Below, one piece after another: positions 2,952 through 23,759 of a stretch of 35,927 bases of DNA. The stretch is from positions 1-35,927 of IMG/VR virus record IMGVR_UViG_3300022911_000012; one strand, written 5' to 3'. The stretch is from a virus. Positions within the stretch are counted from its first letter, which is position 1; each line of letters opens with the position of its first letter. The position numbers and the translations under genes were made by a program. The notes under the pieces were generated by a model, which was not told the DNA's origin, searched no databases, and worked only from the letters and a program-made list of their open reading frames with translations.

Positions 2952-3363
2952 GCTGGCTCAGCTCGTCGACCTGCTGACGCGCCGCCAGTACCGCGTTGCC
3001 TACGCCCTCCCTGAGTGCCTTCGCGCCGCGGTACTGGTCGAGCAGTTCGGATATGACCGCCAGCGCCTTTCCGTAGATGCTGGCCTCGGCGACCGCCATC
3101 GCCAGCGGGGAGGAGGCCAGGCTGGCGAGCGCAGCGGCGCGCGGGCCTTCGCAGTCAGGGTGGCAGTAGTCCAGGTTGTTGGCCTGCTCCCAGGTGGGGA
3201 TCCGGTCGCCGGAGACCATCTCCACGGTCCTGAAGGTTCCGCTCCGGGTGAGCACCCAGTCGGCGCCGACTGCCTCGACGCGGCGGCACGCGTACGAGTC
3301 CCGCCCGAACGAGCCGGCCGCGAAGCCGTGGATGACGTCGCCGGTAGTGAATCCGTGGGTCAT
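2944..3363 (-). CDS. Hypothetical phage protein, 139 aa
   Basis: The N-terminal half (GDVIHGFAAGSFGRDSYACRRVEAVGADWVLTR) resembles a small beta-rich module I recall from actinophage genomes without known function. The C-terminal half is Ala-rich and helical. It starts two bases after the preceding stop and overlaps the following gene by eight bases, in keeping with a single operon. Confidence 0.8.
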   Translation of the reverse strand: MTHGFTTGDVIHGFAAGSFGRDSYACRRVEAVGADWVLTRSGTFRTVEMVSGDRIPTWEQANNLDYCHPDCEGPRAAALASLASSPLAMAVAEASIYGKALAVISELLDQYRGAKALREGVGNAVLAARQQVDELSQRA

Positions 3364-4837: not shown

Positions 4838-5075
4838 TGATGTCCGCCTCGTGGGCGCCCGCCTGCAGCGCTGTGCGGCTGAGCATCCGGCTGAGCATCC
4901 GGATCCCGTCCGCCAGATCCTCCTCGTCGTACTCGATGATCCCGTTCCCGTCCTTGGTCACCGACAGCTTGATCAGCGGTCGACCGGAGCCCGGGTCGCC
5001 GATCATCACGAACACCTCGTCGTGCGCTTTGGCGTCCTCGACCCGAAGGCCGTCCACCTCGCTGGTGATACGCAT
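4830..5075 (-). CDS. Hypothetical protein, first gene of leftward operon
   Basis: 81 aa, acidic; ATG 5075 sits behind GGGAGTAAAT. It is the promoter-proximal gene of the leftward block, preceded by a TACGCT box on the minus strand and then the repeat-rich gene-free region. Function unknown. Confidence 0.85.
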   Translation of the reverse strand: MRITSEVDGLRVEDAKAHDEVFVMIGDPGSGRPLIKLSVTKDGNGIIEYDEEDLADGIRMLSRMLSRTALQAGAHEADISG

Positions 5076-5098
5076 ATTTACTCCCTTCCTGTGGGTTC

Positions 5099-5104
5099 AG
5101 CGTA
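5099..5104 (-). promoter_or_regulatory. -10-like TACGCT for leftward operon
   Basis: On the minus strand TGTACGCTG places a TACGCT -10 box about 24 bases before the start codon at 5075. No TTGACA-like box lies 16-18 bases upstream. The same TACGNT box precedes the starts at 7882, 9504, 11171 and 11537. Confidence 0.45.
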
Positions 5105-5352
5105 CAGCATCGCATACCACATGGGGAGAGTCGAACGGTACAAGGTTGCCCTGCTCAGCGGCCCGTCACGATGGGCGCCTGAGGGCCAGGCGCAGTGGGC
5201 GGCGCGGAGTGGGCGTTGGCAGCGACCTGGGCGGCCGGCAGTGTCAGCAGGGACAGGACGACGACCACAGCGACGCGTCGGAGATAGCGAGCACGAACAG
5301 CAGACATGGGAAGGCCTCTCGCAAATTCGGGTGGGTCGAACGTACCGCGAGC

Positions 5353-5602
5353 CTTGCGACCCCGCTGAAACGCCTGAAAATCCTAAGGTTTGGGACGATG
5401 TCCAATCTGCGTAGTATGCGGCCACCTTGCGACCCCCTATAGCAAACTTGGTTTGCCATAGATTTGCTATACGAATTTGATCTTGCGACCCAGTGATCTT
5501 GTAATACATCTGCAGGTCATCTGGGTTGTGACCCCCTTGCGACCCCCTTGCGACCCAGGGTCCAAGCCCGAGGCCCGCGCAGCAGACATGATCTTGCGAC
5601 CC
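5353..5602. repeat. CTTGCGACCC decamer array
   Basis: Exact direct copies at 5353, 5426, 5482, 5536, 5547 and 5593; an inverted GTCGCAAG lies at 6059. Spacing is irregular (56-73, 54, 11, 46 bases), which fits dispersed protein-binding sites better than a tandem repeat. Confidence 0.75.
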
Positions 5603-5824
5603 TGGCCTCACACACGCATAGCAATTGCCATCATGGGGTGTGACCATCGACGGTGCCAAAACGTGGGCTGACCTGCGTTTTGTCCATCAAGGAGATCGAC
5701 TCCGGCCCGCTGGCCCAGATAGATCCAGATCGATGTCATAGCAAATGCCATGGCAAATGCTATGGCAAAACACATAGCAAACCCGGTTTTACGTAGTTTG
5801 CCATTCGGTTGAATACATGATCAC

Positions 5825-5854
5825 TGAACGCTCGTTCACCTGAACGTGCGTTCA
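5825..5854. promoter_or_regulatory. Twin palindromic operator-like sites
   Basis: TGAACGCTCGTTCA (5825-5838) and TGAACGTGCGTTCA (5841-5854) are two palindromic 14-mers, each with 6-bp arms, separated by two bases. Their centres are 16 bp apart. This is the layout of a double operator for a dimeric regulator; TGAACG...CGTTCA arms are often seen for TetR-family proteins. No TetR gene was recognised in the window. Confidence 0.6.
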
Positions 5855-6024
5855 GGAAGCCGCGCGATAGCAAGTGCCATCAAAGTGCCCCTGACCTGGT
5901 GTTCCACTCACAGACCGTATAGCAAAACATGGCAAAACTGATGGCAAATGCCATGGCAAATGCTATGGCAAGTGTTATGGCAAACGGATAGCAAACGCAT
6001 GGCAAATCGATAGCAGAAGTAAGA

Positions 6025-6047
6025 AGTTACTAGCAGAGCTAGTAACT
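6025..6047. other. AT-rich perfect hairpin
   Basis: AGTTACTAGC / GCTAGTAACT is a perfect 10-bp inverted repeat with a 3-nt AGA loop, unusually AT-rich for this genome. It closes the repeat region just before the first rightward gene. Confidence 0.5.
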
Positions 6048-6132
6048 AAAGACCTCTTGTCGCAAGCTTCGCTGGCGACTGGCAAATGCCATCACCGATG
6101 AGGCGTCGGCGGAGATCGCTGTCGGGGTGTGG

Positions 6133-6138
6133 TACGTT
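6133..6138 (+). promoter_or_regulatory. -10-like TACGTT, leaderless arrangement
   Basis: TACGTT ends seven bases before ATG 6146, so a start site at the usual distance falls at or next to the A of ATG. No -35 and no ribosome binding site are visible. The same arrangement occurs before 8008 and 8524. Confidence 0.4.
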
Positions 6139-6145
6139 CTTCGGC

Positions 6146-6388
6146 ATGACGCCCCGGACCTTCATCGCCGCCACCGCCGACACCCTGCTCGGTGCCGCCG
6201 AGCGGCTCGACTGGGCCGAGGCCGACACCACCGCCGAGCAGGGCCGGAGCATGATCCTCGGCAACCTGCTGCGGCTGAGTTCGCTGAGCCTGGCGCTGAC
6301 CGCCGTCCCGTTCATCGTCATCGACGTGATCTTCGGCGAGATGGACCGAGCGACAGCCGGCGAGCCGCTGACCCCGGAACTCCGTTAG
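6146..6388 (+). CDS. Small predicted membrane protein, 80 aa
   Basis: The charged N-terminal half (FIAATADTLLGAAERLDWAEADTTAEQ) is followed by an apolar segment at about residues 45-68 (LSLALTAVPFIVIDVIFG), a likely single transmembrane helix. I chose ATG 6146, which has a TACGTT box right upstream, over ATG 6086 inside the repeat region. A strong bidirectional terminator follows. Function unknown. Confidence 0.65.
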   Translation: MTPRTFIAATADTLLGAAERLDWAEADTTAEQGRSMILGNLLRLSSLSLALTAVPFIVIDVIFGEMDRATAGEPLTPELR

Positions 6389-8576: not shown

Positions 8577-8828
8577 TCAGGTCCGAATGACCGGCGGTGC
8601 CTTCAGCACCCCGAGCACCTCGTCCGCCAGGTCCTCAGCCCACGCCATGCAGCTGGGGTCTTCTCGGCCCGCCTCGGCGGCCTGCTCGACCTCGTCCAGG
8701 CCATAGTTGCTCCACGAGAACTCGGTAATCGCTTCGATCACCCGCTGCCGGCGCTCGAACCGGGCCTTCGTGAACACCTCGTCGACCGTGGGCAGGAGGT
8801 CGCCTTCGGAACCCGGCACGTCAGGCAC
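8577..8828 (-). CDS. Hypothetical acidic protein, 83 aa
   Basis: GTG start at 8828, overlapping the vWA gene's stop by eight bases. The product is helical and acidic (DEVFTKARFERRQRVIEAITEFSW...DEVEQAAEAGRED). Coupling to the vWA gene suggests the two act together, perhaps as partner or regulator. Family not recognised. Confidence 0.75.
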   Translation of the reverse strand: MPDVPGSEGDLLPTVDEVFTKARFERRQRVIEAITEFSWSNYGLDEVEQAAEAGREDPSCMAWAEDLADEVLGVLKAPPVIRT

Positions 8829-9504
8829 CCTTCTCCACCTCGGTACGCAGCGCCGCGGCGACCGCCTCCGGGGTGGCGCCCTTCGAGTAGGACCGGGTCG
8901 ACGCCGTCATGCCGGCGTAGCTGGACCGCGTCCCGGCGGCCGTGTTCGCCGTCTGGATGACGTTGTGGTCCCGGAATCCGAGCGACCGCCCCTGCTGCCA
9001 CGCCGACGGGCCGGCCCCCAGGAACACGGCCTGCCAGCGGCCGGTGCCCTCGCGCTCCTCGATCATCTTGCTGATCTGCTCCGTGGTGAACCGGTGCGAG
9101 GAGTTCTCCTGGCCGTCGGTCTGCACCACCAGCAGAACCTTGTCCTCCGGCCCGAGTTCGGTCTCCCGCTCGAAGTCCACGATCATCCGTCCGACCGCGT
9201 CCAGCAGCGCGGTCCCGCCCTGCTTCGCGTGGTAGTTCCGGTTGTCCAGCCGCGGCATCGCCGACAGCTTCGAGGCGTTCGACAGCAGGTGGTACTCGGT
9301 CCCGAAGATGGCCGTGGTCACCCGGTACTTGGACCCCTTGTCCTTGCGCAGGCTGTCGATGTACTCGTTGAACCCGCTGATGGTGGCCTGCGCCAGGCCG
9401 TGCATGCTCGCGCTGTCGTCGACCGTCATCAGCACGTGCGTGATGGGCTTGCCGGGCTTCGCGGCACTCGGCTCGGACTTCTGGGCCTTCAGGGCTTCGC
9501 TCAT
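8821..9504 (-). CDS. von Willebrand factor A domain protein
   Basis: 227 aa. The MIDAS metal site is complete: DDSASM (D29, S31, S33), T98 in KQGGTALLDAVG, and D130 in LVVQTDGQENSS, on a Rossmann-like fold (ITHVLMTVDD, YRVTTAIFGTE, KVLLVVQTD, WQAVFLGAG). vWA proteins bind partners through a metal-bridged contact and often work beside AAA ATPases; no ATPase is nearby. ATG 9504 follows GGAAGGAGAGTC; a longer upstream extension has no support. The Ser/Thr/Tyr-rich C-terminus (TRSSYAGMTASTRSYSKG) is likely flexible. Confidence 0.9.
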   Translation of the reverse strand: MSEALKAQKSEPSAAKPGKPITHVLMTVDDSASMHGLAQATISGFNEYIDSLRKDKGSKYRVTTAIFGTEYHLLSNASKLSAMPRLDNRNYHAKQGGTALLDAVGRMIVDFERETELGPEDKVLLVVQTDGQENSSHRFTTEQISKMIEEREGTGRWQAVFLGAGPSAWQQGRSLGFRDHNVIQTANTAAGTRSSYAGMTASTRSYSKGATPEAVAAALRTEVEKGA

Positions 9505-9542
9505 GACTCTCCTTCCGGGCGCTGGCTGCGCCTCGAACTCGC

Positions 9543-9548
9543 AGCGTA
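9543..9548 (-). promoter_or_regulatory. -10-like TACGCT for the vWA gene
   Basis: Minus-strand CGGTACGCTGCG places TACGCT 38 bases before ATG 9504; no -35 box is seen. It belongs to the TACGNT-only promoter group. Confidence 0.4.
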
Positions 9549-9639
9549 CCGGGCCGGTCCGACATGTGACTAGCGTGATCAAAACCCATGTGGTAAAGAC
9601 CCTGATACCCTGTGCTGACTTCCCGAGAAAGGACCCCCA

Positions 9640-10443
9640 ATGGGCCAGCTCAGCGAGGACGCCAAGACCGACGCACTGCACTTCGCGCTGCGCGTCGCCG
9701 ACGCGGCCGACTCGATCATCCTGTTCCACGCCGGCAACGTGCGCTCCGAGATGAAGCCCGACGGAACCCCGGTCTCCGACGTCGACCGTGCGATCGAGCG
9801 CATGGTCCACGCCGCCGTGAAGCGCGACCGCCGCGGCGAGGAGGTGCTGGGCGAGGAGAACGTCACCGGCTACAGGCCCGACGGTTCCCGGATCTGGGTC
9901 GTCGACCCGATCGACGGGACCGAGCTGCTCGTCAACGGCGACCCCGGTTACGTCTTCAGCATGGCCCTCGTGATCGACGGCCACCCCGAGGTCGCCGTCG
10001 TGCGCGACCCGCGGACCGGACGCAGCTGGTACGCCACGCTGGGCGGCGGCGCCTGGCTGAACGGCACGACCAGGCTCCGGGTCTCCGACCACACCCAGAT
10101 CATCAGGCAGGCCGGCTGGGAGCCGGCGCGGCCGGCCGGCAACATGTTCCTCTGGCCCGACGTCGTCAGCCTGGTCGACGGGGCCGGAGTCACCCCGCTC
10201 GAATACGGGTCCGTCATCCGGTCGGCGATGGACGTCGCGATGGGTCGCCTCGACGGGTTGGTGTTCGGCCGATCCGGGCCGTGGGACATGGCCACCGCCG
10301 CGCTCATCGTGCCCGAGGCCGGCGGCCGGTTCACCGACCTGCTGGGCTTCAACCAGCGCGTCGACCAGCCTGTCAACGGCGGCCTGCTCTCCAACCTCTG
10401 GATCCACGAAGACCTGGTCCAGCTGGTCGACCACCAGCGCTAG
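9640..10443 (+). CDS. Inositol-monophosphatase-family phosphatase
   Basis: 267 aa, the usual size of the family. Metal-binding motifs are present: GEEN (E72/E73), WVVDPIDGT (D89, D92, G93, T94) and the C-terminal WDMATAALIVPEAGG (D216). Members remove phosphate from inositol phosphate, 3'-phosphoadenosine 5'-phosphate, histidinol phosphate or fructose bisphosphate with Mg2+; the sequence does not fix the substrate. RBS GAAAGGA precedes ATG. It sits alone with a strong terminator behind it, as an auxiliary metabolic gene would. Confidence 0.9.
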   Translation: MGQLSEDAKTDALHFALRVADAADSIILFHAGNVRSEMKPDGTPVSDVDRAIERMVHAAVKRDRRGEEVLGEENVTGYRPDGSRIWVVDPIDGTELLVNGDPGYVFSMALVIDGHPEVAVVRDPRTGRSWYATLGGGAWLNGTTRLRVSDHTQIIRQAGWEPARPAGNMFLWPDVVSLVDGAGVTPLEYGSVIRSAMDVAMGRLDGLVFGRSGPWDMATAALIVPEAGGRFTDLLGFNQRVDQPVNGGLLSNLWIHEDLVQLVDHQR

Positions 10444-11895: not shown

Positions 11896-11993
11896 GTAGT
11901 GGCTTCACCGGAGCGACGCAGCGAGCGAGGCGGGCACAGCCCCCCGACACTGCGTAACCACAGAGGCAGGCACGGCACGACGCAACACAGCAC

Positions 11994-12034
11994 GTCAAGC
12001 TCGACTTGACAGGCACGGCACGACACGCTAGGTT
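11994..12034 (+). promoter_or_regulatory. Rightward promoter 2 with dyad operator
   Basis: TTGACA (12006-12011), 17-bp spacer, TAGGTT (12029-12034). The -35 lies in the perfect dyad GTCAAG-N5-CTTGAC (11994-12010). Confidence 0.8.
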
Positions 12035-12156
12035 GATGGGGCACGGCAGGGAACGGGCAGGGCACAGGTAGCGCTAGACGGACGCACAGGGACATCACCT
12101 GCCTCCGCTACTGACCCCCGCACATACGCCCTGCACAACGTGCACAGCAAGCAAGC

Positions 12157-12197
12157 GTCAAGCCGCACTTGACAAGCGGGGCGCAGCACGGTACGGT
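12157..12197 (+). promoter_or_regulatory. Rightward promoter 3 with dyad operator
   Basis: TTGACA (12169-12174), 17-bp spacer, TACGGT (12192-12197). Perfect dyad GTCAAG-N5-CTTGAC at 12157-12173. Confidence 0.85.
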
Positions 12198-12294
12198 TAC
12201 ACCGCAACACCCCGGCCCACCTGGGCAGGGCGCACGGAAGCGGGCCACACGGTGGCAAGACGGCAAGCGCACGAATCAAGACCCGCAGTGTGAG

Positions 12295-12336
12295 TGTCAA
12301 GCGGGACTTGACAAGTAGGGCCGAGAGCGGTAACGT
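12295..12336 (+). promoter_or_regulatory. Rightward promoter 4 with dyad operator
   Basis: TTGACA (12308-12313), 17-bp spacer, TAACGT (12331-12336). It has the most complete dyad, TGTCAAG-N5-CTTGACA (12295-12313). It is the last of the tandem set and directly precedes the boxA-type leader. Confidence 0.88.
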
Positions 12337-12451
12337 TCTCCCCAGCAACACGGACGGTACGGAAGCGGGACGCGGCGAGCGTCAAGACGAACCCCTGGTG
12401 GGAAGGCGGGCCTGAGGTCCGCACGCCATAACAGCACTGGCGACAACCGGT

Positions 12452-13400: not shown

Positions 13401-13592
13401 ATGAAGGTTTACCTGGTTGAGGGCGGTTTCAACTACGAGAACTCGACCGTGTTCGGGGTGAAGTCCACTCCGGATAAGGCCGAACGGATGCGAGCCGAGA
13501 TCGAGGCCGAGTCGACCTACGACTGGGTCAGCGTGAGCGAGTTCGAGGTGGACGAGGACGAGCCTGAGGTCAAGTTTGCGGGTGTCACCTGA
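13401..13592 (+). CDS. Hypothetical small protein, 63 aa
   Basis: MKVYLVEGGFNYENSTVFGVKSTPDKAERM... with an acidic C-terminal stretch (SEFEVDEDEPEVKF). The strand-helix-strand pattern (KVYLVEGG, then KAERMRAEIEAE) recalls the short phage family that reports itself as a beta-alpha-beta fold. RBS GAGGCGGGGACGC. RNA repeat E2 follows. Confidence 0.85.
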   Translation: MKVYLVEGGFNYENSTVFGVKSTPDKAERMRAEIEAESTYDWVSVSEFEVDEDEPEVKFAGVT

Positions 13593-13593
13593 T

Positions 13594-13652
13594 CCTGCGG
13601 TTGAGGTCGAGGCGCGGTGCGAACCGTGCCTGGACTCCGGCGCAGGGCCGGA
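13594..13652 (+). repeat. RNA repeat E2 (class I)
   Basis: P1 CCTGCG (13594-13599) / CGCAGG (13641-13646). Hairpin A arms GCGCGGT/ACCGTGC show a compensated T-A in place of the C-G pair of E1. Hairpin B TCCGGC/GCCGGA. Confidence 0.9.
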
Positions 13653-13671
13653 TGTAGGCGAGGAGTGCGCA

Positions 13672-13938
13672 ATGCCCGAGTTCAGCTACAACCTGTACGA
13701 CATCCACTCGATCCGGTCGATGTTCCGGGTGGCTCGCCTGGTCACTCCGAATGGCGACCAGGAGCGATGGATCGCCACCATGGATAACCGCACCTGGCGG
13801 ATGGACAACGGTCGCTGGCACGGAACCGGGGGCTGGGACGTCGCCCGCTACCTGGAGGGTGACATGCGTGAGCACCTGACGGAGCAGCTGTTCGAGTACG
13901 GCGTCACGCCGGATTCGGCGCTCTGGGAATCGTTCTGA
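13672..13938 (+). CDS. Hypothetical protein, 88 aa
   Basis: ATG 13672 behind GGCGAGGAGTGCGCA; the in-frame extension through E2 is an artefact. MPEFSYNLYDIHSIRSMFRVARLV... has aromatic-rich, Trp-containing repeats (RWIATMDNRTWRMDNGRWHGTGGW) suggestive of beta strands, then an amphipathic tail. Function unknown. Confidence 0.8.
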   Translation: MPEFSYNLYDIHSIRSMFRVARLVTPNGDQERWIATMDNRTWRMDNGRWHGTGGWDVARYLEGDMREHLTEQLFEYGVTPDSALWESF

Positions 13939-13939
13939 T

Positions 13940-13998
13940 CCTGCGGTTGAGGTCGAGGCGCGGCGCTGGCCGTGCCTGGACTCCGGCGCAGGGCCGGA
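13940..13998 (+). repeat. RNA repeat E3 (class I)
   Basis: P1 CCTGCG (13940-13945) / CGCAGG (13987-13992); hairpin A GCGCGGC-GCTG-GCCGTGC; hairpin B TCCGGC/GCCGGA. Followed by ACGGAACGAGGGAGACATC and ATG, an RBS string shared with other cassettes. Confidence 0.9.
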
Positions 13999-14016
13999 CG
14001 GAACGAGGGAGACATC

Positions 14017-14337
14017 ATGGGCGACGCCACGGCGGTCGAGATCATCACGGCGGCGGAACTGATCACGCCGGATGACTACACGACCGAACTGGGCAAGCGC
14101 TGGGCGGCGCACCGCAACGAGTGGGTGACCGTGACCGAGATCCGGCTGGCGCACACCGGCGGCCAGCTGGCGGGCTACATCGTGGCCGGTGACGACAACC
14201 ACGTGTTCGGCATGGCGGAGTGCACCGACGGATCCTCCAAGTCGGTGGCGCACTGCATCCTGGACACGGCGTCGGGCAGGGAGCACATGATCGCCAGTGT
14301 GATCGCTGTCTGGGCTGACAGCTGGGGCGGTAACTGA
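14017..14337 (+). CDS. Hypothetical protein, 106 aa
   Basis: ATG 14017 behind ACGAGGGAGACATC. MGDATAVEIITAAELITPDDY... has a helical start, then alternating strands (EWVTVTEIRLAHTGGQLAGYIVAGDDNHVFGMAEC) and two Cys. Soluble and acidic. Family unknown. Confidence 0.8.
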   Translation: MGDATAVEIITAAELITPDDYTTELGKRWAAHRNEWVTVTEIRLAHTGGQLAGYIVAGDDNHVFGMAECTDGSSKSVAHCILDTASGREHMIASVIAVWADSWGGN

Positions 14338-14338
14338 T

Positions 14339-14397
14339 CCTGCGGGTGAGGTCGAGGCGCGGCGTAGGCCGTGCCTGGACTCCGGCGCAGGGCCGGA
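14339..14397 (+). repeat. RNA repeat E4 (class I)
   Basis: P1 CCTGCG (14339-14344) / CGCAGG (14386-14391); hairpin A GCGCGGC-GTAG-GCCGTGC; hairpin B TCCGGC/GCCGGA. Confidence 0.9.
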
Positions 14398-14414
14398 TGG
14401 AGCAAGGGGGCGTC

Positions 14415-14660
14415 ATGCCGAAGTTCGAGATCCACGCCAACGGGGACCGTCAGGAAACCATCGAGCTGGAGATGCCCAAGATCGGGCTGCTGATCGAGGT
14501 GGTCAGCGCGTTCTGGACGCACGATGTGTTCCGCAACGAGGGTGGCTGCCCGTTCACGGTTGCGGTGGTCAAGCACGACGGCCGAACCGTGGCGTATGGG
14601 TGGCTGGAGCCTGCGGGTTGGATGTGGGACGACATCGACGAGGCTTACGACGAGAGCTGA
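14415..14660 (+). CDS. Hypothetical protein, 81 aa
   Basis: ATG 14415 behind AAGGGGGCGTC. MPKFEIHANGDRQETIELEM... is strand-rich at first, then ends WLEPAGWMWDDIDEAYDES, acidic with three Trp. Soluble. Function unknown. Confidence 0.8.
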   Translation: MPKFEIHANGDRQETIELEMPKIGLLIEVVSAFWTHDVFRNEGGCPFTVAVVKHDGRTVAYGWLEPAGWMWDDIDEAYDES

Positions 14661-14661
14661 T

Positions 14662-14720
14662 CCTGCGGTTGAGGTCGAGGCGCGGCGCTGGCCGTGCCTG
14701 GACTCCGGCGCAGGGCCGGA
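14662..14720 (+). repeat. RNA repeat E5 (class I)
   Basis: P1 CCTGCG (14662-14667) / CGCAGG (14709-14714); hairpin A GCGCGGC-GCTG-GCCGTGC; hairpin B TCCGGC/GCCGGA. Nearly identical to E3. Confidence 0.9.
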
Positions 14721-14738
14721 CGTACGGAAGGTGTGAGC

Positions 14739-14978
14739 ATGAGCTACCGCGTCGAGGTGCTGGAGCCGTTCACGGAGGCGCCGCTGGGCTTCCTGATGAC
14801 TGAGGACGACACCCAGGTCGCTACCTTCGGCACCCTGGATGATGTCCGGCAGGCCATCGGCGAGTCGATTGCCGCTGGCCGCCCGATGGACTACCTGGTC
14901 GAGGACGAGAGCGGCGAGCATGTCGGCGTGGCCTACGCCGATGGGGAGGTGTGGCACTACGAACTGCCCGAGGACTGA
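14739..14978 (+). CDS. Hypothetical acidic protein, 79 aa
   Basis: ATG 14739 behind GGAAGGTGTGAGC. MSYRVEVLEPFTEAPLGFLMTEDDTQVATFGTLDDVRQAIGES... has the strand-helix layout of small single-domain phage proteins and a strongly acidic tail. Function unknown. Confidence 0.8.
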   Translation: MSYRVEVLEPFTEAPLGFLMTEDDTQVATFGTLDDVRQAIGESIAAGRPMDYLVEDESGEHVGVAYADGEVWHYELPED

Positions 14979-14979
14979 T

Positions 14980-15037
14980 CCTGTGGTTGAGGGTGCGGGC
15001 CGCTACGGCGGCTCGTCGCCTCCGGCACAGGGCCGGA
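14980..15037 (+). repeat. RNA repeat E6 (class I)
   Basis: P1 CCTGTG (14980-14985) / CACAGG (15026-15031); hairpin A changed to GGGCCGC/GCGGCTC with a GAGG/CCTC outer stem; hairpin B TCCGGC/GCCGGA. Confidence 0.9.
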
Positions 15038-15053
15038 TGAGAGCGAGGGCACG

Positions 15054-15308
15054 ATGACCTTCCGAATGATGATCCGTGAGGCTGTCAAGGGTGGCGGCAT
15101 CGAGGAGTATCACCCCGAGGTCAGCGCCAAAGAGATCGACTACTTCGTCACGGTCACGGAGAAGTTCTACGGGGCCTGCCCGCAGTTCTTCGCGGTGACG
15201 ATCATTGACGAGGACACCGACGAACCGGTGCTGTACGGGGCTCGCCAGGAGGGCGACGTGTGGCGCTGGAGCGGGGCGTACTACGCACCACGGCCGAAAG
15301 GCTACTGA
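15054..15308 (+). CDS. Hypothetical protein, 84 aa
   Basis: MTFRMMIREAVKGGGIEEYHPEVSAKEIDYFVTVTEKFYGACPQFFAVTIIDEDTDEPV... is mixed alpha/beta with an aromatic C-terminus (WRWSGAYYAPRPKGY). RBS GAGAGCGAGGGCACG. Function unknown. Confidence 0.8.
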   Translation: MTFRMMIREAVKGGGIEEYHPEVSAKEIDYFVTVTEKFYGACPQFFAVTIIDEDTDEPVLYGARQEGDVWRWSGAYYAPRPKGY

Positions 15309-15309
15309 T

Positions 15310-15368
15310 CCTGCGGTTGAGGTCGAGGCGCGGCGTAGGCCGTGCCTGGACTCCGGCGCAGGGCCGGA
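15310..15368 (+). repeat. RNA repeat E7 (class I)
   Basis: P1 CCTGCG (15310-15315) / CGCAGG (15357-15362); hairpin A GCGCGGC-GTAG-GCCGTGC; hairpin B TCCGGC/GCCGGA. Confidence 0.9.
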
Positions 15369-15384
15369 CGGAAGTGAGGGCATC

Positions 15385-15876
15385 ATGACCAGGATCATCG
15401 ACCAGCGGGTCCGGGACTTCGTCGCCGAGACCGGGCTGGATCTCGTGGCGGTCAGCGAGTACGTCGAGGACGTCGTGACCGGCTACATCGGCACCCTGCT
15501 GTGGAGCGAGTCGTGCAACGGCACGGCGCCGTTGCACGTCTGCGACCACCTCAGTAGGCAAGGTGACGAGGCGGCCGACTGCGACACGAGCTTGGACTCG
15601 CTGGGCTACGCCGAGAACGATCTCGCCGGGGAGGCTTACGACTCGATCCGGGAGGACGTCGCGGACTTCGTCTGCGCCAACTGGGCGGACCTGTACGGCT
15701 CCGACATGGACGCCGGGCAGGCCGGTCACGACTTCCTGCTCACCCGCAACCACCACGGTGCGGGTTTCTGGGACCGGGGGCTCGGCGAGCGTGGCGACAG
15801 GCTCACGGCCAACGCTCACCCGTACGGCGCAACCGACGCCTACGTGGGAGACGACGAGCTGGTCTACGTGAGCTGA
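15385..15876 (+). CDS. Conserved phage protein, 163 aa
   Basis: The C-terminal part (AGHDFLLTRNHHGAGFWDRGLGERGDRLTANAHPYG, about residues 113-148) matches a motif I recall in many actinophage and other phage proteins of unknown role (HDFW.TRNGHGAGFWDR). The His/Asp/Arg residues of this motif look catalytic or nucleotide-binding. The N-terminus is acidic with three Cys. ATG 15385 follows AGTGAGGGCATC. Confidence 0.85.
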   Translation: MTRIIDQRVRDFVAETGLDLVAVSEYVEDVVTGYIGTLLWSESCNGTAPLHVCDHLSRQGDEAADCDTSLDSLGYAENDLAGEAYDSIREDVADFVCANWADLYGSDMDAGQAGHDFLLTRNHHGAGFWDRGLGERGDRLTANAHPYGATDAYVGDDELVYVS

Positions 15877-15878
15877 TC

Positions 15879-15937
15879 GTCCAGATGAGGGTGAGCGCCG
15901 GTTACGCCCGGCGCTTCGCCTCCGGTGGATGGCCGGC
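15879..15937 (+). repeat. RNA repeat E8 (class I, diverged)
   Basis: P1 GTCCA (15879-15883) pairs with TGGAT (15926-15930), a covarying replacement of the usual pair. Hairpin A GCGCCGG/CCGGCGC; hairpin B is shorter (CCGG/CCGG). Confidence 0.75.
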
Positions 15938-15957
15938 CGATTTCCAGGAGGAATCTC

Positions 15958-16227
15958 ATGATCGCCAACCTGATCGACAAGACTCACGCCATCGGCGGTA
16001 TCCGGGTGGCCGAGCGTCCCCGCCGTGCTGTGCGGCGCGGTGGCCCTGTGGTCATCGTGTCGCTGGCTGACGGTTCCGAGAAGGTCTACCCGGTCGGCCG
16101 TGATGTCGAGGTCACGGGCTGGACGGAGCCGTTCCAAGCGGGTCCGGTCAAGGCCCTTGTCGGTGGTCAGCGCATCGACTACGCCGAGCGTACGGCCAAC
16201 TTCACCGTGAGCCGTAACCCTCGCTGA
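15958..16227 (+). CDS. Hypothetical basic protein, 89 aa
   Basis: ATG 15958 behind CCAGGAGGAATCTC, one of the best RBSs here. Unlike its neighbours it is basic, with Arg-rich stretches (RVAERPRRAVRRGG) and small beta strands (PVVIVSLADGSEKVYPVGRDVEVTGW), so it may bind nucleic acid. It ends just before a promoter, so it may close a transcription unit. Confidence 0.8.
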   Translation: MIANLIDKTHAIGGIRVAERPRRAVRRGGPVVIVSLADGSEKVYPVGRDVEVTGWTEPFQAGPVKALVGGQRIDYAERTANFTVSRNPR

Positions 16228-16233
16228 GCCGAG

Positions 16234-16276
16234 TGTCACGGCCAACTTGACAGGGTAGGGTGAGGGCCGCTACTGT
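16234..16276 (+). promoter_or_regulatory. Rightward promoter 5 with operator half-sites
   Basis: TTGACA (16247-16252), 18-bp spacer, TACTGT (16271-16276). TGTCA (16234-16238) and TTGACA form the dyad in its relaxed form. Serves 16313 onward. Confidence 0.85.
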
Positions 16277-16312
16277 GGTCCTCAGCAAGGCAACGAGCGA
16301 GAGGAACGGGAC

Positions 16313-16510
16313 ATGGCAATCACACAGGACGTACTGGCGGGCAGTGCCGCATACGACGCGGTAGCCCAGACGGAGAGCGTCGAGGAGAAGCGACACCTGC
16401 TCCGGGCGTTCCGGCCGGGCGTGCTGCACTACCTCGCCGATGCGGTCTACGTGGAATGGGAGGGGCTGCGCGAGGAGACCGTGATCAACAACATCCTGAC
16501 CGAACTCTGA
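16313..16510 (+). CDS. Hypothetical protein, 65 aa
   Basis: First gene after promoter 5. MAITQDVLAGSAAYDAVAQTESVEEKRHLLRAF... is helical and soluble, with a C-terminal EETVINNILTEL helix. RBS GAGAGGAACGGGAC. Function unknown. Confidence 0.8.
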   Translation: MAITQDVLAGSAAYDAVAQTESVEEKRHLLRAFRPGVLHYLADAVYVEWEGLREETVINNILTEL

Positions 16511-16511
16511 T

Positions 16512-16569
16512 CCTGTGGTTGAGGGTGCGGGCCGCTACGGCGGCCCGATGCCTCCGGCACAGGGCCGGA
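16512..16569 (+). repeat. RNA repeat E9 (class I)
   Basis: P1 CCTGTG (16512-16517) / CACAGG (16558-16563); hairpin A GGGCCGC/GCGGCCC, a full Watson-Crick version of the G-T pair seen in E6; hairpin B TCCGGC/GCCGGA. Confidence 0.9.
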
Positions 16570-16589
16570 AGTGAGCACGAGGAGCGACT

Positions 16590-16949
16590 GTGAAGCTGCA
16601 CACCGACATCCTGACGTCGATGAACATCGACGAGGCGCTGAACCGAGCCAAGGAGGCGGGCAAGGTCACTCGGGACATCTACTTCGTCCAGAAGAACGGC
16701 GCCGGATCTCGGTCCCGCCGGGCCGGGTACGAGATCCAGCTGGGCACCGACGACAAGACGTCGGGACCGACCAACTCCCGGCGCTTCAAGAACAGCGGCT
16801 GGACCGGCGCCGACACGGTGTACGCGGCGACCTACGACGAGTGGGGATGGTTCATCGCCCAGCTCTTCGAGGTGGACCCCGACGCCATCTTCGGCAACTA
16901 CAAGGGCGTGGAGGACTTCCACGAGCAGACCAAGAACGCGTATCGCTGA
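16590..16949 (+). CDS. Hypothetical protein, 119 aa
   Basis: GTG 16590 behind ACGAGGAGCGACT. MKLHTDILTSMNIDEALNRAKEAGKVTRDIYFVQK... is followed by a strand-rich Gly/Ser section (GYEIQLGTDDKTSGPTNSRRFKNSG) and a YDEWGWFIAQLFEVDPDAIFG segment, a layout I recall from uncharacterised actinophage proteins. Function unknown. Confidence 0.82.
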   Translation: MKLHTDILTSMNIDEALNRAKEAGKVTRDIYFVQKNGAGSRSRRAGYEIQLGTDDKTSGPTNSRRFKNSGWTGADTVYAATYDEWGWFIAQLFEVDPDAIFGNYKGVEDFHEQTKNAYR

Positions 16950-16950
16950 T

Positions 16951-17008
16951 CCTGCGGTTGAGGGTGGGCGCCGGGCAACCGGCGCCATGCCTCCGGCGCA
17001 GGGCCGGA
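16951..17008 (+). repeat. RNA repeat E10 (class I)
   Basis: P1 CCTGCG (16951-16956) / CGCAGG (16997-17002); hairpin A changed to GGCGCCGG/CCGGCGCC; hairpin B TCCGGC/GCCGGA. Confidence 0.9.
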
Positions 17009-17026
17009 CAGAATGAGGGAGACATC

Positions 17027-17407
17027 ATGGGCAGCGTCCTGGACTACTTCGTCCGTCACATCACGCTGGTGCTCGACAACGACGAGGCGACCTACAACCG
17101 GATGACACGGACGGCGATCCGCATCGTCCGCAACAGCGGGGTCACGGTCTCCGAGTGGAAGAAGATGGACAGCGAGGACCGCCGCGACGAGTACGCCATG
17201 AAGATCGGCGAGCGTCTGGTGGAGATCATCGAGGACGAGTACCTCGCCGAGGCGGTCAGTGACGGCACGGTCGGCGCACAGCTGATCAGCGAGGTCATGA
17301 TCACCGGTGACAACGCGTTCGTCTACGAGATCGGCAGTCACTACATCCCCGAAGACGCCGACGTCGTCGACCTGCTTGACGACGAGGACGACGACGACAT
17401 CTTCTGA
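17027..17407 (+). CDS. Hypothetical acidic protein, 126 aa
   Basis: ATG 17027 behind ATGAGGGAGACATC. Helical N-terminus (DYFVRHITLVLDNDEATYNRMTRTAIRIVRNSG), a charged middle, and a strongly acidic tail (VVDLLDDEDDDDIF). The acidic tail could mimic DNA or bind a basic partner; that is speculation. Family unknown. Confidence 0.82.
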   Translation: MGSVLDYFVRHITLVLDNDEATYNRMTRTAIRIVRNSGVTVSEWKKMDSEDRRDEYAMKIGERLVEIIEDEYLAEAVSDGTVGAQLISEVMITGDNAFVYEIGSHYIPEDADVVDLLDDEDDDDIF

Positions 17408-17408
17408 T

Positions 17409-17466
17409 CCTGCGAATGAGGGTGCGGGCCGCTACGGCGGCTCGTCGCCTCCGGCGCAGGGCCGGA
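17409..17466 (+). repeat. RNA repeat E11 (class I)
   Basis: P1 CCTGCG (17409-17414) / CGCAGG (17455-17460); core GAATGAGG; hairpin A GGGCCGC/GCGGCTC; hairpin B TCCGGC/GCCGGA. Confidence 0.9.
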
Positions 17467-17484
17467 TGGAACGAGGGAGTGGCG

Positions 17485-17769
17485 ATGGCAACCCTTTACG
17501 GCGTGATTTACACGGCCGACGACGAGAGCACCACCGAGCACTCGGCCCACATCACCAAAGATGACGCGGCACGGGCTGGCGCTGAGCTGGTCAAAGCCGA
17601 GGTCGAGCGGATCAGGTCGTGGGACCCGTCAGCGCCTGACCTGCCCGAGGTGTGGGCGGGCGACTGGGACCTGATCGACTGGATGCGTTCGCACTACGAG
17701 GTGCGGCTGGAGATCGAGCCGGTCGAGGTCTCCGAAGATGTGATCCGGGCGCTGATTGCCCGGCGCTGA
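17485..17769 (+). CDS. Hypothetical protein, 94 aa
   Basis: ATG 17485 behind ACGAGGGAGTGGCG. MATLYGVIYTADDESTTEHSAHITKDDAARAGAELVKAEVERIRSW... is acidic, with a beta-alpha start and a Trp-rich middle (EVWAGDWDLIDWM). Function unknown. Confidence 0.8.
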   Translation: MATLYGVIYTADDESTTEHSAHITKDDAARAGAELVKAEVERIRSWDPSAPDLPEVWAGDWDLIDWMRSHYEVRLEIEPVEVSEDVIRALIARR

Positions 17770-17770
17770 T

Positions 17771-17828
17771 CCTGCGGATGAGGGTGCGGGCCGCTACGGC
17801 GGCTCGTCGCCTCCGGCGCAGGGCCGGA
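17771..17828 (+). repeat. RNA repeat E12 (class I)
   Basis: P1 CCTGCG (17771-17776) / CGCAGG (17817-17822); core GGATGAGG; hairpins as in E11. Confidence 0.9.
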
Positions 17829-17846
17829 TGGAACGAGGGAGACACC

Positions 17847-18707: not shown

Positions 18708-18995
18708 ATGCAGCGAGACAACCTGGCCATCGCGGTGTCCTACGAGGGCGAGCGGGAGGTTGACAGCGGCGGTGTGAGCAAGCTGGCCGAGCTGTACCGC
18801 CAGATGCAGTACGGCGCGGACATCCGGATACTGAGCGTGGCCGCGCTGGACGAGGGCGGGGTGCTGGTGCCGGTGAAGCACGAGATGCTGCCCTACACCT
18901 TCGACGACAACTCGATGGCCTACCCGGTCGTCAAGGTGACCATGCCGGACGGCCTGGCCGAGTGGGCGACCTTTTCGCTGGACGGCCGCGCCTAA
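18708..18995 (+). CDS. Hypothetical protein, 95 aa
   Basis: ATG 18708 behind AAAGGAAGCAAG. MQRDNLAIAVSYEGEREVDSGGVSKLAELYRQMQYGADIRILSVAALDEGGVLV... is mixed alpha/beta, then strands up to a TFSLDGRA end. It is the last gene before promoter 6. Function unknown. Confidence 0.8.
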   Translation: MQRDNLAIAVSYEGEREVDSGGVSKLAELYRQMQYGADIRILSVAALDEGGVLVPVKHEMLPYTFDDNSMAYPVVKVTMPDGLAEWATFSLDGRA

Positions 18996-18996
18996 T

Positions 18997-19052
18997 CGTG
19001 CGCTGATGGTGGCGCCCGGCTTCGGCCGGGCGTTGCCACCGTCGCATGACGG
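18997..19052 (+). repeat. RNA repeat E15 (class II)
   Basis: P1 CGTGC / GCATG (loop 19044-19047, one G-T pair); hairpin A GGTGGC...GCCACC enclosing GCCCGGC/GCCGGGC; hairpin B CCGTC/GACGG. It lies directly before a promoter, so here it ends a transcription unit. Confidence 0.9.
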
Positions 19053-19058
19053 ACACAC

Positions 19059-19100
19059 TGTCACGACCAACTTGACAGTGGGGTTGAGATGCACTACGTT
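19059..19100 (+). promoter_or_regulatory. Rightward promoter 6 with operator half-sites
   Basis: TTGACA (19072-19077), 17-bp spacer, TACGTT (19095-19100); TGTCA at 19059. The start-region string TCTCAGCAGGGAAAAC is shared with promoter 7. Confidence 0.88.
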
Positions 19101-19136
19101 GGGTCTCAGCAGGGAAAACGACACACGGAGGTCACC

Positions 19137-19550
19137 ATGGGGAAGCTGCTCGCATCCAAGTTCCTGGAGCAGGTCATTCACCAGATGCCGGAGGACGTAC
19201 TGGCCAACTACGGCAACTGCAGCGTGCCGGAGTCACACGAAAGCCCTGGTGCTCGGTTCCTCAACGGAGCACGTCAGGGCTTCCTGCAGATCCTGGATCA
19301 GTACAACGGCGAGAGCCGGCAGGAGACCCAGGACAAGGTCTGGGGCGTGGCCGCGGAATGCCCGGCTGGAGTCATCAGCCTGCTTTGGGAGCAGTTCGCC
19401 GACCTGCACGCCTACCGCGAGGACATCGAAATGGAGATGCGCTCGCTGAACGACATGGCGCACATCGCGTTGCAGCAGATCGCCGAGCGCGTCATCCAGG
19501 AACTGCTCAACGAGTGGTTCGACCAGCTGGAAGCGCCCGAATACTACTGA
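19137..19550 (+). CDS. Hypothetical protein, 137 aa
   Basis: ATG 19137 behind ACGGAGGTCACC. Largely helical (LLASKFLEQVIHQMPEDVLANY; EQFADLHAYREDIEMEM; IALQQIAERVIQELLNEWFDQLE), probably a small helical bundle. First gene after promoter 6. Function unknown. Confidence 0.83.
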   Translation: MGKLLASKFLEQVIHQMPEDVLANYGNCSVPESHESPGARFLNGARQGFLQILDQYNGESRQETQDKVWGVAAECPAGVISLLWEQFADLHAYREDIEMEMRSLNDMAHIALQQIAERVIQELLNEWFDQLEAPEYY

Positions 19551-19606
19551 CGTACGGATGATGGTGCGGCCCGGGTGACCGGGCCGATGCCACCGCTGTA
19601 CGGCGG
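19551..19606 (+). repeat. RNA repeat E16 (class II, CGTAC type)
   Basis: P1 CGTAC (19551-19555) / GTACG (19598-19602); hairpin A CGGCCCGG/CCGGGCCG; hairpin B CCGCT/GGCGG with one G-T pair. Confidence 0.88.
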
Positions 19607-19628
19607 AACGATCGAGAGTGAGGCAGGC

Positions 19629-19922
19629 ATGACAACCTCTTACGTGCTGACGGTTCGGCACCCCGACTACGGCAACGAGTACACGGTCGACGGCGACGTG
19701 CATGTCGTCGACATCGACCTGGGCAACGGGTTCTTCGTGCGACCCGGTGACTACGAGACCGCAATGGATTTCGCGCTCTCTGTCGACAGGCTGTCGGACG
19801 TGCCGATCACCTCCCCGGTCTTCTCGGCCGGTCTGGCCATTTTCAGGGAGGCGCTGAGGGACTGGGACAACGTGCTGCCGATCATCGACGAGTACGAGCA
19901 GGAGCGCCGCCGCGTCGCCTGA
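19629..19922 (+). CDS. Hypothetical protein, 97 aa
   Basis: ATG 19629 behind GAGTGAGGCAGGC. MTTSYVLTVRHPDYGNEYTVDGDVHVVDIDLGNGFFVRPGDYETAM... is strand-rich then helical, acidic, with a charged tail (DEYEQERRRVA). Function unknown. Confidence 0.8.
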   Translation: MTTSYVLTVRHPDYGNEYTVDGDVHVVDIDLGNGFFVRPGDYETAMDFALSVDRLSDVPITSPVFSAGLAIFREALRDWDNVLPIIDEYEQERRRVA

Positions 19923-19923
19923 T

Positions 19924-19979
19924 CCGTGCGCTGATGGTGCGGCCCGGTCATCCGGGCCGCCGCCACCGCCGCACGGCGG
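19924..19979 (+). repeat. RNA repeat E17 (class II)
   Basis: P1 CCGTGC (19924-19929) / GCACGG (19971-19976), fully Watson-Crick; hairpin A GCGGCCCGG/CCGGGCCGC; hairpin B CCGCC/GGCGG. Confidence 0.92.
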
Positions 19980-19998
19980 AATGATCGAGGGAGCAACC

Positions 19999-20448
19999 AT
20001 GGTCAGGTACTGCGAGGACAAGCTGGTCGACGAGCACGGTGACAAGCAGGAGGACATCACCTGCCCCGGCCACCTCAGCAAGTTCGACGACTGCGTCCAG
20101 GAGGCGCTGTGGGAGCTGGTGCTGGACAACGGCGGCGAGCTGCAGACGGGGACCGACGACTTCGAGGGCACCTTCACGCTCTTCAACTTCGCCGACGAAG
20201 AGGCGGTGGAGATCAACCCGGATGGTGTCGATGCCCGCTGGGTGATGGTGCCGGAGGGCTACTACATCCTGCAGACCACCAGCGGCGGGTTCGTCTACAC
20301 GCTGAAGTACGAGACCTACCGCGAGGCGCGGGAGGCGTACGAGGTGGCCGACGACCGCTACAGCCGCTGGGAGAAGGGGTGCGAGCAGACCGGGCACGAG
20401 GTCTGCGAGACCGAAGACGAATGCCAGCTGGGTGGAATCCCCGCCTGA
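19999..20448 (+). CDS. Hypothetical protein, 149 aa
   Basis: I chose ATG 19999 behind GAGGGAGCAACC; the earlier ATG 19981 lies before that RBS. Acidic, strand-rich (TFTLFNFADEEAVEINPDGV, WVMVPEGYYILQTTSGGFVYTLKY), with Cys near both ends (C5, C22, C32; CEQTGHEVCETEDEC). May bind metal. Family unknown. Confidence 0.83.
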   Translation: MVRYCEDKLVDEHGDKQEDITCPGHLSKFDDCVQEALWELVLDNGGELQTGTDDFEGTFTLFNFADEEAVEINPDGVDARWVMVPEGYYILQTTSGGFVYTLKYETYREAREAYEVADDRYSRWEKGCEQTGHEVCETEDECQLGGIPA

Positions 20449-20478
20449 CGCCGGCAAGGATGCGAGGAGGAGAACGCG

Positions 20479-20667
20479 ATGCCTGAGGATCACTACGACC
20501 TGCTGCACCGCACGCTGGGCGGCGGGCTGAACGATCGCCAGCACGGCGCGGTGTACGGGCTGGCCTACCAGTTCGGCCACAGCGCCGGGGAGGACGAGGT
20601 CAGGGTCTACTACGAGGACCTGGCGGACATGGCCCGAGCGGTCATCGACGCCAGCGACGAGCGCTGA
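20479..20667 (+). CDS. Hypothetical acidic protein, 62 aa
   Basis: ATG 20479 behind GAGGAGGAGAACGCG; no RNA repeat separates it from the previous gene. MPEDHYDLLHRTLGGGLNDRQHGAVYGLAYQFGHSAGEDEV... is helical. Its last codons (GAG CGC) form the 5' strand of E18, so the gene and the RNA element overlap. Confidence 0.8.
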   Translation: MPEDHYDLLHRTLGGGLNDRQHGAVYGLAYQFGHSAGEDEVRVYYEDLADMARAVIDASDER

Positions 20668-20713
20668 TGGTGCGGCCCGGCATGTCCGGGCCGACGCCAC
20701 CGCCGCTCGGCGG
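20658..20713 (+). repeat. RNA repeat E18 (class II, CGAGC type)
   Basis: P1 CGAGC (20658-20662, inside the preceding coding end) / GCTCG (20705-20709); hairpin A CGGCCCGG/CCGGGCCG; hairpin B CCGCC/GGCGG. Confidence 0.92.
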
Positions 20714-20735
20714 AACGAGACACAGGGAGCACCGA

Positions 20736-21311
20736 ATGCGGACTGTCACGGCAGATGATTTCGACGTCTACACCCTGGACGAGCTGGAGCCGGAAGCACG
20801 GCGCCGGGCCATCGGCGAGGTCGCTGAGAAGCTGGGCAGCACCTGGTGGGACAGCAACGACAACGACGACATCAGCGACGTCATGCGCTACACCCTGGCC
20901 AACAAGTTCGGCACGCCTGGTCACGGTGACTTCGGCGTCGGCGACTTCCCCGGCATCACAGGGGTCACGCTGCAGAGCTGGGACCTGGACCGGGGCAACT
21001 ACATCGGGCTGACGGGTGTCCTGACCCGCCAGAACGCCCCCGCCCTGCCCTGGACGGACGGCGTCGAGCAAGTGGCACTGCGAGAGGGCAACGAGTACAC
21101 GTCGATCGACGTCGAGTTCGACGACACGCTGGCCGAGCCGGACATGGAGCTGGTCAACGACCAGATGACCGAGGCGATCACCGACGCGATGCACGAGGCG
21201 CTGCGCGACGGCCGGGCCGAGATGGAATACAAGACCGGTGAGGAGTACGCCGCCGGTTTCATCGAGGGCAACGGCCTGGAGTTCCTGGAGGACGGCACGC
21301 AGTACCCCTGA
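20736..21311 (+). CDS. Hypothetical phage protein, 191 aa
   Basis: The start resembles a widespread phage family with the motif Y.FDELS.EA...A (here YTLDELEPEARRRAI) followed by WWDS..., then a Gly-rich strand region (FGTPGHGDFGVGDFPGITGVTLQSW) and an acidic C-terminal helix. ATG 20736 has CAGGGAGCACCGA upstream. Members have no proven function. Confidence 0.85.
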   Translation: MRTVTADDFDVYTLDELEPEARRRAIGEVAEKLGSTWWDSNDNDDISDVMRYTLANKFGTPGHGDFGVGDFPGITGVTLQSWDLDRGNYIGLTGVLTRQNAPALPWTDGVEQVALREGNEYTSIDVEFDDTLAEPDMELVNDQMTEAITDAMHEALRDGRAEMEYKTGEEYAAGFIEGNGLEFLEDGTQYP

Positions 21312-21312
21312 T

Positions 21313-21368
21313 CGAGCACTGATGGTGGCGCCCGGCTCCGGCCGGGCGTTGCCACCGCCGCTCGGCGG
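21313..21368 (+). repeat. RNA repeat E19 (class II, CGAGC type)
   Basis: P1 CGAGC (21313-21317) / GCTCG (21360-21364); hairpin A GGTGGC...GCCACC with GCCCGGC/GCCGGGC; hairpin B CCGCC/GGCGG. Confidence 0.92.
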
Positions 21369-21389
21369 AACGGGACACAAGGAGTGGAC

Positions 21390-21683
21390 ATGGCAGGCAT
21401 GAAGCAGCTGATGACGGCGATCGAGGAGATGGCGGAGACGCTGGCCAACAGCGACACCGCGCTGGCACATCTGACGTGCCGCGAGGTGGGCTCAATCGTG
21501 GACGTGCTGGTGTTGTCGGGCCTGGAGCAGCACGTCGGTGGTGTCCTCATGGGGCACGCCTACGGCGACAGCGGCACGGGCGACACGCACCACGATCTGT
21601 ACCAGTCAGACGAGCGAGGTAACGAGGACGAGCTGGTGGACGGTTACATCGAGGCCGCGAAGCAGCGACTCGGCGTGCGCTGA
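21390..21683 (+). CDS. Hypothetical protein, 97 aa
   Basis: ATG 21390 sits five bases after AAGGAG; GTG 21384 overlaps that RBS and is less likely. Helical N-terminus (KQLMTAIEEMAETLANSDTALAHL), then VGSIVDVLVLSGLEQHVGGVLMGHAYGDSGTGD. I recall similar helical proteins as actinophage unknowns. Its last codons enter E20. Confidence 0.83.
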   Translation: MAGMKQLMTAIEEMAETLANSDTALAHLTCREVGSIVDVLVLSGLEQHVGGVLMGHAYGDSGTGDTHHDLYQSDERGNEDELVDGYIEAAKQRLGVR

Positions 21684-21729
21684 TGGTGCGGCCCGGCATG
21701 TCCGGGCCGACGCCACCGCCGCACGGCGG
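21674..21729 (+). repeat. RNA repeat E20 (class II)
   Basis: P1 CGTGC (21674-21678, within the coding end) / GCACG (21721-21725); hairpin A CGGCCCGG/CCGGGCCG; hairpin B CCGCC/GGCGG. Confidence 0.92.
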
Positions 21730-21755
21730 AATCCCGAGCAGGAAGTGAGACCACC

Positions 21756-22118: not shown

Positions 22119-22164
22119 TGGTGGCGGCCGGGCTCCCCGGCCGCACGCCACCGCCGCTCGGCGG
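22109..22164 (+). repeat. RNA repeat E21 (class II, CGAGC type)
   Basis: P1 CGAGC (22109-22113, within the coding end) / GCTCG (22156-22160); hairpin A GCGGCCGGG/CCCGGCCGC; hairpin B CCGCC/GGCGG. Confidence 0.92.
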
Positions 22165-22188
22165 AACGAACGCTACGAACGGAGCGAC

Positions 22189-22632: not shown

Positions 22633-22652
22633 AAGAGACCAGGGAGAATGCG

Positions 22653-23000: not shown

Positions 23001-23030
23001 ACCCAGCCAGACTGACGATAGGAGCCAGGC

Positions 23031-23758: not shown

Positions 23759-23759
23759 C

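Follow-up and report, generated by a model that had tools for sequence, protein, structure and literature searches.

A free-standing array of RTNGCAAR octamers in a viral genome fragment: a candidate iteron-type replication origin

The DNA considered here is a virus record of IMG/VR (IMGVR_UViG_3300022911_000012), a linear fragment of 35,927 bases with a GC content of about 0.67, and this whole stretch is referred to below as the window. Two small divergent genes leave between them an intergenic gap that holds the entire array of short repeats described in this article (Table 1). The GC content is 0.565 at 5001-6000, as compared to about 0.67 elsewhere in the window. A 193-residue ORF with a TTG start (5078-5659, - strand) overlaps the left part of the array, but its GC3 minus GC2 value of -0.03 is not of the coding type, and six-frame translation of 5301-6130 yields no other plausible gene. 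The array stretch is essentially gene-free, and the preliminary description, made from the sequence before this analysis, was right to call it both gene-free and AT-richer.

ATRGCAAA is present in 15 exact copies in the window, where 0.33 would be expected from shuffling. All lie within 5439-6006, with 12 on the + strand and three on the - strand, in agreement with the dense cluster in both orientations noted at the outset. Counted over 5310-6145, these 15 copies compare with 0.09 expected, the largest number in 2000 shuffles being 2. A second word, CTTGCGACCC, is found six times in the window, only at 5353-5602 (six copies in 5310-6145 against 0.003 expected in shuffles). It had been listed as a separate decamer; the six copies are there, but the word is more aptly taken for the GTCGCAAG form of a common octamer. 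Indeed, since CTTGCGAC is the reverse complement of GTCGCAAG, both words fit the single octamer RTNGCAAR, which has 24 of its 27 window copies inside the gap (5310-6145; 0.66 expected, at most 5 in 2000 shuffles). The repeats are real and are not ordinary repeat noise, and, for the 36-kb window to which the comparison applies, one can dismiss the possibility that the octamers are equally dense elsewhere. The preliminary description erred in seeing frequently abutting ATGGCAAAT/ATTTGCCAT pairs, as a search for ATRGCAAATN{0,30}ATTTGCYAT gives 0 matches; the octamers instead make up a 14-bp imperfect palindrome, ATRGCAANTGCYAT, and head-to-tail copies at 11-12 bp.

Table 1. Layout of the octamer array, the gap that contains it and the flanking ORFs (positions in the window).
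Feature	Position	Strand	Basis
Small flanking ORF, 50 aa, hydrophobic N-terminal segment	5155..5307	-	sequence, by eye
Intergenic gap between divergent genes, holding the whole array	5308..6145	.	sequence, ORF list, codon-position GC, six-frame translation
Left block, six GTCGCAAG (on + = CTTGCGACCC): 5353, 5426, 5482, 5536, 5547, 5593	5353..5600	-	
Left ATRGCAAA group, mixed direction, among GTCGCAAG copies: 5439 (+), 5452 (-), 5463 (-)	5439..5470	.	
14-bp palindrome-like site ATAGCAATTGCCAT	5618..5631	.	sequence, inverted-repeat search
Four head-to-tail ATRGCAAA, 12 bp apart (12,12,12)	5738..5781	+	
Inverted ATRGCAAA copy after the four-copy block	5797-5804	-	
Two adjacent GAAC-N4-GTTC-type palindromes, operator-like	5824..5855	.	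inverted repeat I6; fold z -2.66
Single ATAGCAAG	5867..5874	+	
Main block, eight head-to-tail copies of ATRGCAAR; spacings 10,12,12,12,12,11,11	5919..6006	+	
AT-rich stretch adjoining the main block, with perfect 10-bp hairpin (6025-6047)	6007..6058	.	
Single GTCGCAAG	6059..6066	+	
Small flanking ORF of 80 aa with a single hydrophobic segment, without Pfam match	6146..6388	+	sequence, ORF list, Pfam

The array is not uniform along its length. The GTCGCAAG copies of the left block lie at irregular distances, whereas the main + strand blocks keep to the 11- or 12-bp spacing. Nine RTNGCAAR octamers fall within 5867-6006, a density above the four per 150 bp by which dense arrays are defined below. 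Sites similar to ATAGCAATTGCCAT are found at 5738, 5867, 5941 and 6079, the last of these being truncated. The paired palindromes between the two + strand blocks may resemble an SOS box or a TetR-like operator. Beside the main block lies the adjacent AT-rich region typical of iteron origins: the GC content is 0.38 at 6000-6049, and the AT content over 60 bp belongs to the top 0.2% of the window. This stretch is a candidate unwinding element. It has a fold z of -3.3 and contains a perfect hairpin (inverted repeat I16), which is terminator-like on the - strand and could alternatively be a terminator for - strand transcripts.

In viral contigs the exact pattern ATRGCAAATGCYATGGCAAA is found in 28 cases, mostly translated within a gene as MANAMANA-like repeats and usually just behind a conserved RSEAGKxGAxxRW motif. 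Three array patterns (28, 30 and 28 contigs, the third with ATCGCAAA) gave 76 loci, with repeats of a locus counted once, and the array genes provided two search models, one DUF1376-like and one for a "WFKVDD" HTH family. An initiator-like domain lies at most 100 bp from the densest octamer cluster in 65 of the 76 loci; chance placement would give about 6 of 65 domain-adjacent loci. The same is true of 64 of the 66 loci with at least three octamers per 150 bp, and of all 52 loci with at least four, where the domain is moreover on the same strand. Eleven of these 52 dense loci supplied seeds for the search models and 41 did not, and the weakest domain matches accepted were near E 0.0006 (L330, L333, L348). 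The 11 loci without an initiator near the cluster (L010, L017, L021, L268, L269, L270, L272, L275, L281, L286, L337) hold only two or three octamers each, and L021, which has three, still shows no initiator after upstream extension (L328). Arrays of the C variant (ATCGCAAA), close to the window's GTCGCAAG, are carried at the same initiator-like genes. The octamer types tend to occur apart in these other loci, a C-type site being also present in a few, such as L005, L007, L011, L012, L018 and L020.

What is conserved in these arrays is the DNA word rather than the peptide it may encode. In 36 distinct arrays, 157 of 176 intervals measure 11 or 12 bp, 107 of the 176 are not multiples of three, and the octamers start in all three reading frames (80/56/45). 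Alanine is encoded by GCA in 92 of 123 codons inside the arrays, versus 219 of 1268 outside the arrays in these ORFs (Fisher p 4e-39). Spacing, frames and GCA bias together indicate selection on the DNA word and not on the protein. Some arrays are partly or wholly non-coding and placed at the end of a short initiator ORF (L015, L016, L279, L280, L283, L254, L357), which terminates shortly ahead of the array, at it or inside it, and so the array need not be protein-coding; the share of ATAGCAAA is higher in such non-coding arrays, though not significantly (p 0.27). For 27 of the 36 arrays the 150 bp downstream have a higher AT content than the locus (p 0.001); for the 150 bp upstream this is so in 14 of 36, which is not significant. 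A hairpin behind the array was considered as a general feature and rejected, with three of 36 at the 10% level.

The association runs in one direction. Among unselected loci with a scorable domain, three or more ATRGCAAR are present in one of 15 for DUF1376 and in 0 of 12 for phrog_2447 (two and four further loci had no scorable domain, and the pattern-preselected L292, L293 and L311 were left out). An octamer array thus signals an initiator, while the presence of an initiator does not entail the octamer. Other short repeats occupy the array's place in the unselected DUF1376 genes L294, L300, L301, L305, L306 and L307, suggesting that each initiator lineage may have its own repeat word. In bacterial genomes the pattern is found in at least 117 stretches, mostly single chance matches; among the bacterial matches listed, an initiator adjoins five of the ten with at least three octamers per 150 bp and all three with at least four.

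The array-linked domains belong to DUF1376 (PF07120) or are annotated in PHROGs as "replication initiation protein" or "primosomal protein". Confident structure predictions for both families (mean pLDDT 88 and 92) give each a winged-helix-like fold in which the shared motif lies on a long C-terminal helix. The viral structural neighbours of the second (HTH) family include a DUF1376 protein and replisome organizers, and in profile comparison the two families join only over the 30-residue RSEAGKxGAxxRW end. Pfam contains no entry for the second family, sequence searches of solved structures returned no relative for either one, and Foldseek against the PDB gave weak hits, with best E values of 0.59 and 0.21. 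VIA-align retrieved many winged-helix proteins, the DnaD N-domain among them, with Z up to 7.7; scores of this middling size make the winged-helix fold class likely without naming a family.

Does the window itself encode such a protein? No match to a DUF1376/phrog_2447-type initiator was obtained at E <= 0.001 in the 36-kb record, with weak controls for these "own" searches (positive in 0 and 1 of 14 genomes), so that these negatives alone are not strong. The two models built from array genes gave best scores at E about 1 or above on the window, while the same models find distant members elsewhere, and the window lacks any RSEAGKxGAxxRW-like motif. No initiator-like gene is therefore found within 100 bp of the window array on the same strand. 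A Pfam scan of 30 window proteins showed no helicase, primase or polymerase. The scan did give DUF3263 at 1547-1783, which we take to be DNA-binding-like, and a weak HTH_23 at 33848-34300; an inositol monophosphatase family gene lies at 9640-10443 (+, Pfam E 2e-32). A GC-skew switch, which would support an origin without being essential to one, is absent from the array: cumulative skew is flat over 5-7 kb and turns near 12-13 kb, where gene direction also changes, and gene direction confounds the skew test.

Other repeats are present further to the right. Three 45-bp direct repeats (11991-12035, 12154-12198 and 12293-12337) carry TTGACA plus TACGGT/TAACGT/TAGGTT-like hexamers, with a GTCAAG...CTTGAC inverted motif over the -35, and look like tandem early promoters with a common operator. 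At about 13589-17839 and 18992-23818, many small rightward genes have near-identical 60-75-bp repeats at their starts, and these repeats form two families. Start-associated repeats are known in some actinophages, and those of the window resemble them.

Named phages were searched at the DNA level for near as well as distant relatives of the window, and nothing useful came of it. A match to FlameThrower (H1) was set aside, as its roughly 44 bases lie inside the leftward gene region and are unrelated to the array. Under a loose limit, the main block matched Arthrobacter phage 1191A, in its gene for replication initiation, as well as 24 other records, mostly Vibrio phages (21); these matches span only 22-24 bases at E 0.8-3 and were taken as chance. 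The left block gave one weak match to a Xanthomonas phage. A near-identical contig exists (L288/L329, 94-98% DNA identity in long blocks), but it spans no more than about 14.0-35.9 kb and roughly another 1.2 kb past that, and is thus uninformative on the array or the missing initiator. In viral contigs no relatives were found for the gene right of the array or at the left end, and the protein of 8821-9660 has a 33% relative in L150. Pairs of CTTGCGACC occur in at least 119 stretches of viral contigs. Three contigs with many copies (L064, L103, L137) contain 12/24-bp tandem repeats and were judged unrelated; among the matches listed, two have an initiator-like domain, L077 with a real in-gene array of the ATCGCAAA type and L141 with none. 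Tight TTGCGACCCC repeats were also seen in L047 (1983-2035) and similar viral contigs of 35-38% GC. No paper describing an RTNGCAAR octamer array was found in the open-licence PMC literature.

The array of the window is, with somewhat better than even likelihood, a replication origin of the iteron type whose initiator acts in trans. This reading is supported by the confinement of the octamer density to the gap, the tight link of the octamer to initiator-like genes, the common spacing and the AT-rich flank. It is weakened by the lack of any initiator-like gene in 36 kb, unlike all 52 dense phage arrays, and also by the absence of a skew turn at the array and of a replication enzyme among the scanned proteins, by the uneven GTCGCAAG spacing on the left, by the one-way nature of the link and by the lack of a general hairpin behind such arrays. 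We infer, from sequence comparison, that initiator-like proteins bind the octamer and that the array serves as origin in this virus with its initiator acting in trans. The initiator would be of the winged-helix type and, the record being a fragment, would be encoded elsewhere in the virus; its molecules would bind the octamers side by side on one face of the DNA, and the resulting complex would open the AT-rich stretch at about 6007-6058. Replication would then start at the opened stretch, as lambda O makes it do at ori-lambda. What is observed to be unusual in the window is that its array stands free where two genes diverge, combines two octamer types and has no detectable initiator in 36 kb.

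The main rival to the origin reading is multi-site regulation, in which a virus protein, perhaps an autorepressing initiator or a different HTH protein, would bind the octamers as operators and control the divergent gene sets. The position of the array, which fills the gap between divergent genes, speaks for it, as do the operator-like double palindrome at 5824-5855, the 14-bp palindrome-like sites formed by octamers, and the small window proteins with possible HTH-type domains (DUF3263 and the weak HTH_23). Yet regulation is rather unlikely to be the main role: elsewhere the same octamer and spacing lie mostly inside or behind initiator genes and not at promoters, 24 copies are many for an operator, and 5100-6300 offers one weak sigma-70-like site where 0.6 would be expected, whereas clear tandem promoter-like units are found near 11.99-12.34 kb. 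Chance or low-complexity repeats without function, for which one could invoke short AT-rich words in a non-coding gap, are scarcely credible given 24 copies against at most five in 2000 shuffles and the same spacing in 36 other distinct arrays.

The missing initiator could also be given another meaning. A virus without an initiator of its own might use, or titrate, those of other phages in the same cell, and the array would then be a parasitic or decoy origin, built from an iteron word common to many unrelated phages, whose two opposed blocks of two octamer types would let the initiators of different co-resident phages start replication or be titrated. By total count (24) no larger array of this kind was seen here, its two octamer types tend to be separate in other loci, its own initiator was not found within 36 kb, and a four-copy array without adjoining initiator is also seen in Bacillus plasmids; origin mimicry between phage and satellite is documented in another system, in the portion of PMC8263062 drawn on here. 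An initiator lying outside a fragmentary record is nevertheless the simpler reason, and a borrowed or decoy origin appears improbable. More improbable still is a parS centromere for partition of an extrachromosomal prophage. In favour of such a site stands actinophage RedRock, for whose parS the section of PMC7157519 consulted describes an 8-bp motif that occurs eight times in direct orientation, likewise an eight-base word in tandem copies. However, the RedRock word is of the AGTCGAGT type, recurs every 8 bp instead of every 11-12 and lies beside parA and parB, and the RedRock region has only two scattered RTNGCAAR in 14 kb and no array of them. In the window record, itself a fragment, ParB_N (PF02195) and AAA_31 (PF13614) gave 0 matches, the controls being positive in 10 and 14 of 14 genomes. 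The absence of ParA/ParB, together with a motif and a period unlike those of RedRock parS, disfavours partition. The preliminary description had proposed an origin or a partition site; its first half gains from the finding of the same octamer, at 11-12 bp, by the initiator-like genes of dozens of phages, while its second half is not supported.

RTNGCAAR at 11-12-bp spacing seems to be common to initiators of two protein families in phages of very different hosts, which suggests an octamer word kept as DNA even where it is also translated. The array may serve as a sequence rule for predicting phage origins, and it singles out DUF1376 proteins as likely origin binders; to this the window adds a case in which the array lies outside a gene altogether.

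How does this array compare with known origins? In lambdoid phages, as presented in the part of PMC7466680 used here, the middle of gene O carries the iterons of the origin together with an AT-rich tract; these iterons, bound by the phage initiator, number four in lambda and six in Stx phages. Direct repeats and an AT-rich flank are thus shared, as is, for most phage arrays studied here, the location within the initiator gene. The window differs by its 8-bp word, 11-12-bp period, about 24 copies and position outside any initiator gene. Closer to it are the DUF1376/phrog_2447-type arrays (L003-L030, L268-L287, L330-L356), with the same octamer family, spacing and AT-rich flank, although these lie within 100 bp of a domain ending in RSEAGKxGAxxRW and the window has no such gene. 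The circular Propionimicrobium phage genome NZ_CP127391 (L357/L361) offers a non-coding ATRGCAAR array, mostly at 12-bp spacing, in an actinobacterial host, but with only five ATRGCAAR and immediately after the stop codon of the ORF for an HTH initiator. The PLE satellite of Vibrio cholerae has non-coding iterons bound by a replication initiator, differing in that there are three repeats of about 30 bp and another initiator family, according to the passages of PMC8263062 that bear on its origin. Finally, Bacillus MobP2 plasmids such as pCR2 and pSX01705-1 (L358-L360) have four free-standing octamers, 11-12 bp apart, with no adjoining initiator of the two families; they are of the conjugative type, and their array (3002-3043 of the locus in L358 and L359) is upstream of a MobP2 relaxase operon. 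Such plasmid arrays without an adjoining initiator imply that free-standing arrays may be a wider, if rarer, form, and the array of the window, away from the initiator gene, is indeed arranged in the manner of the origin of a satellite or plasmid.
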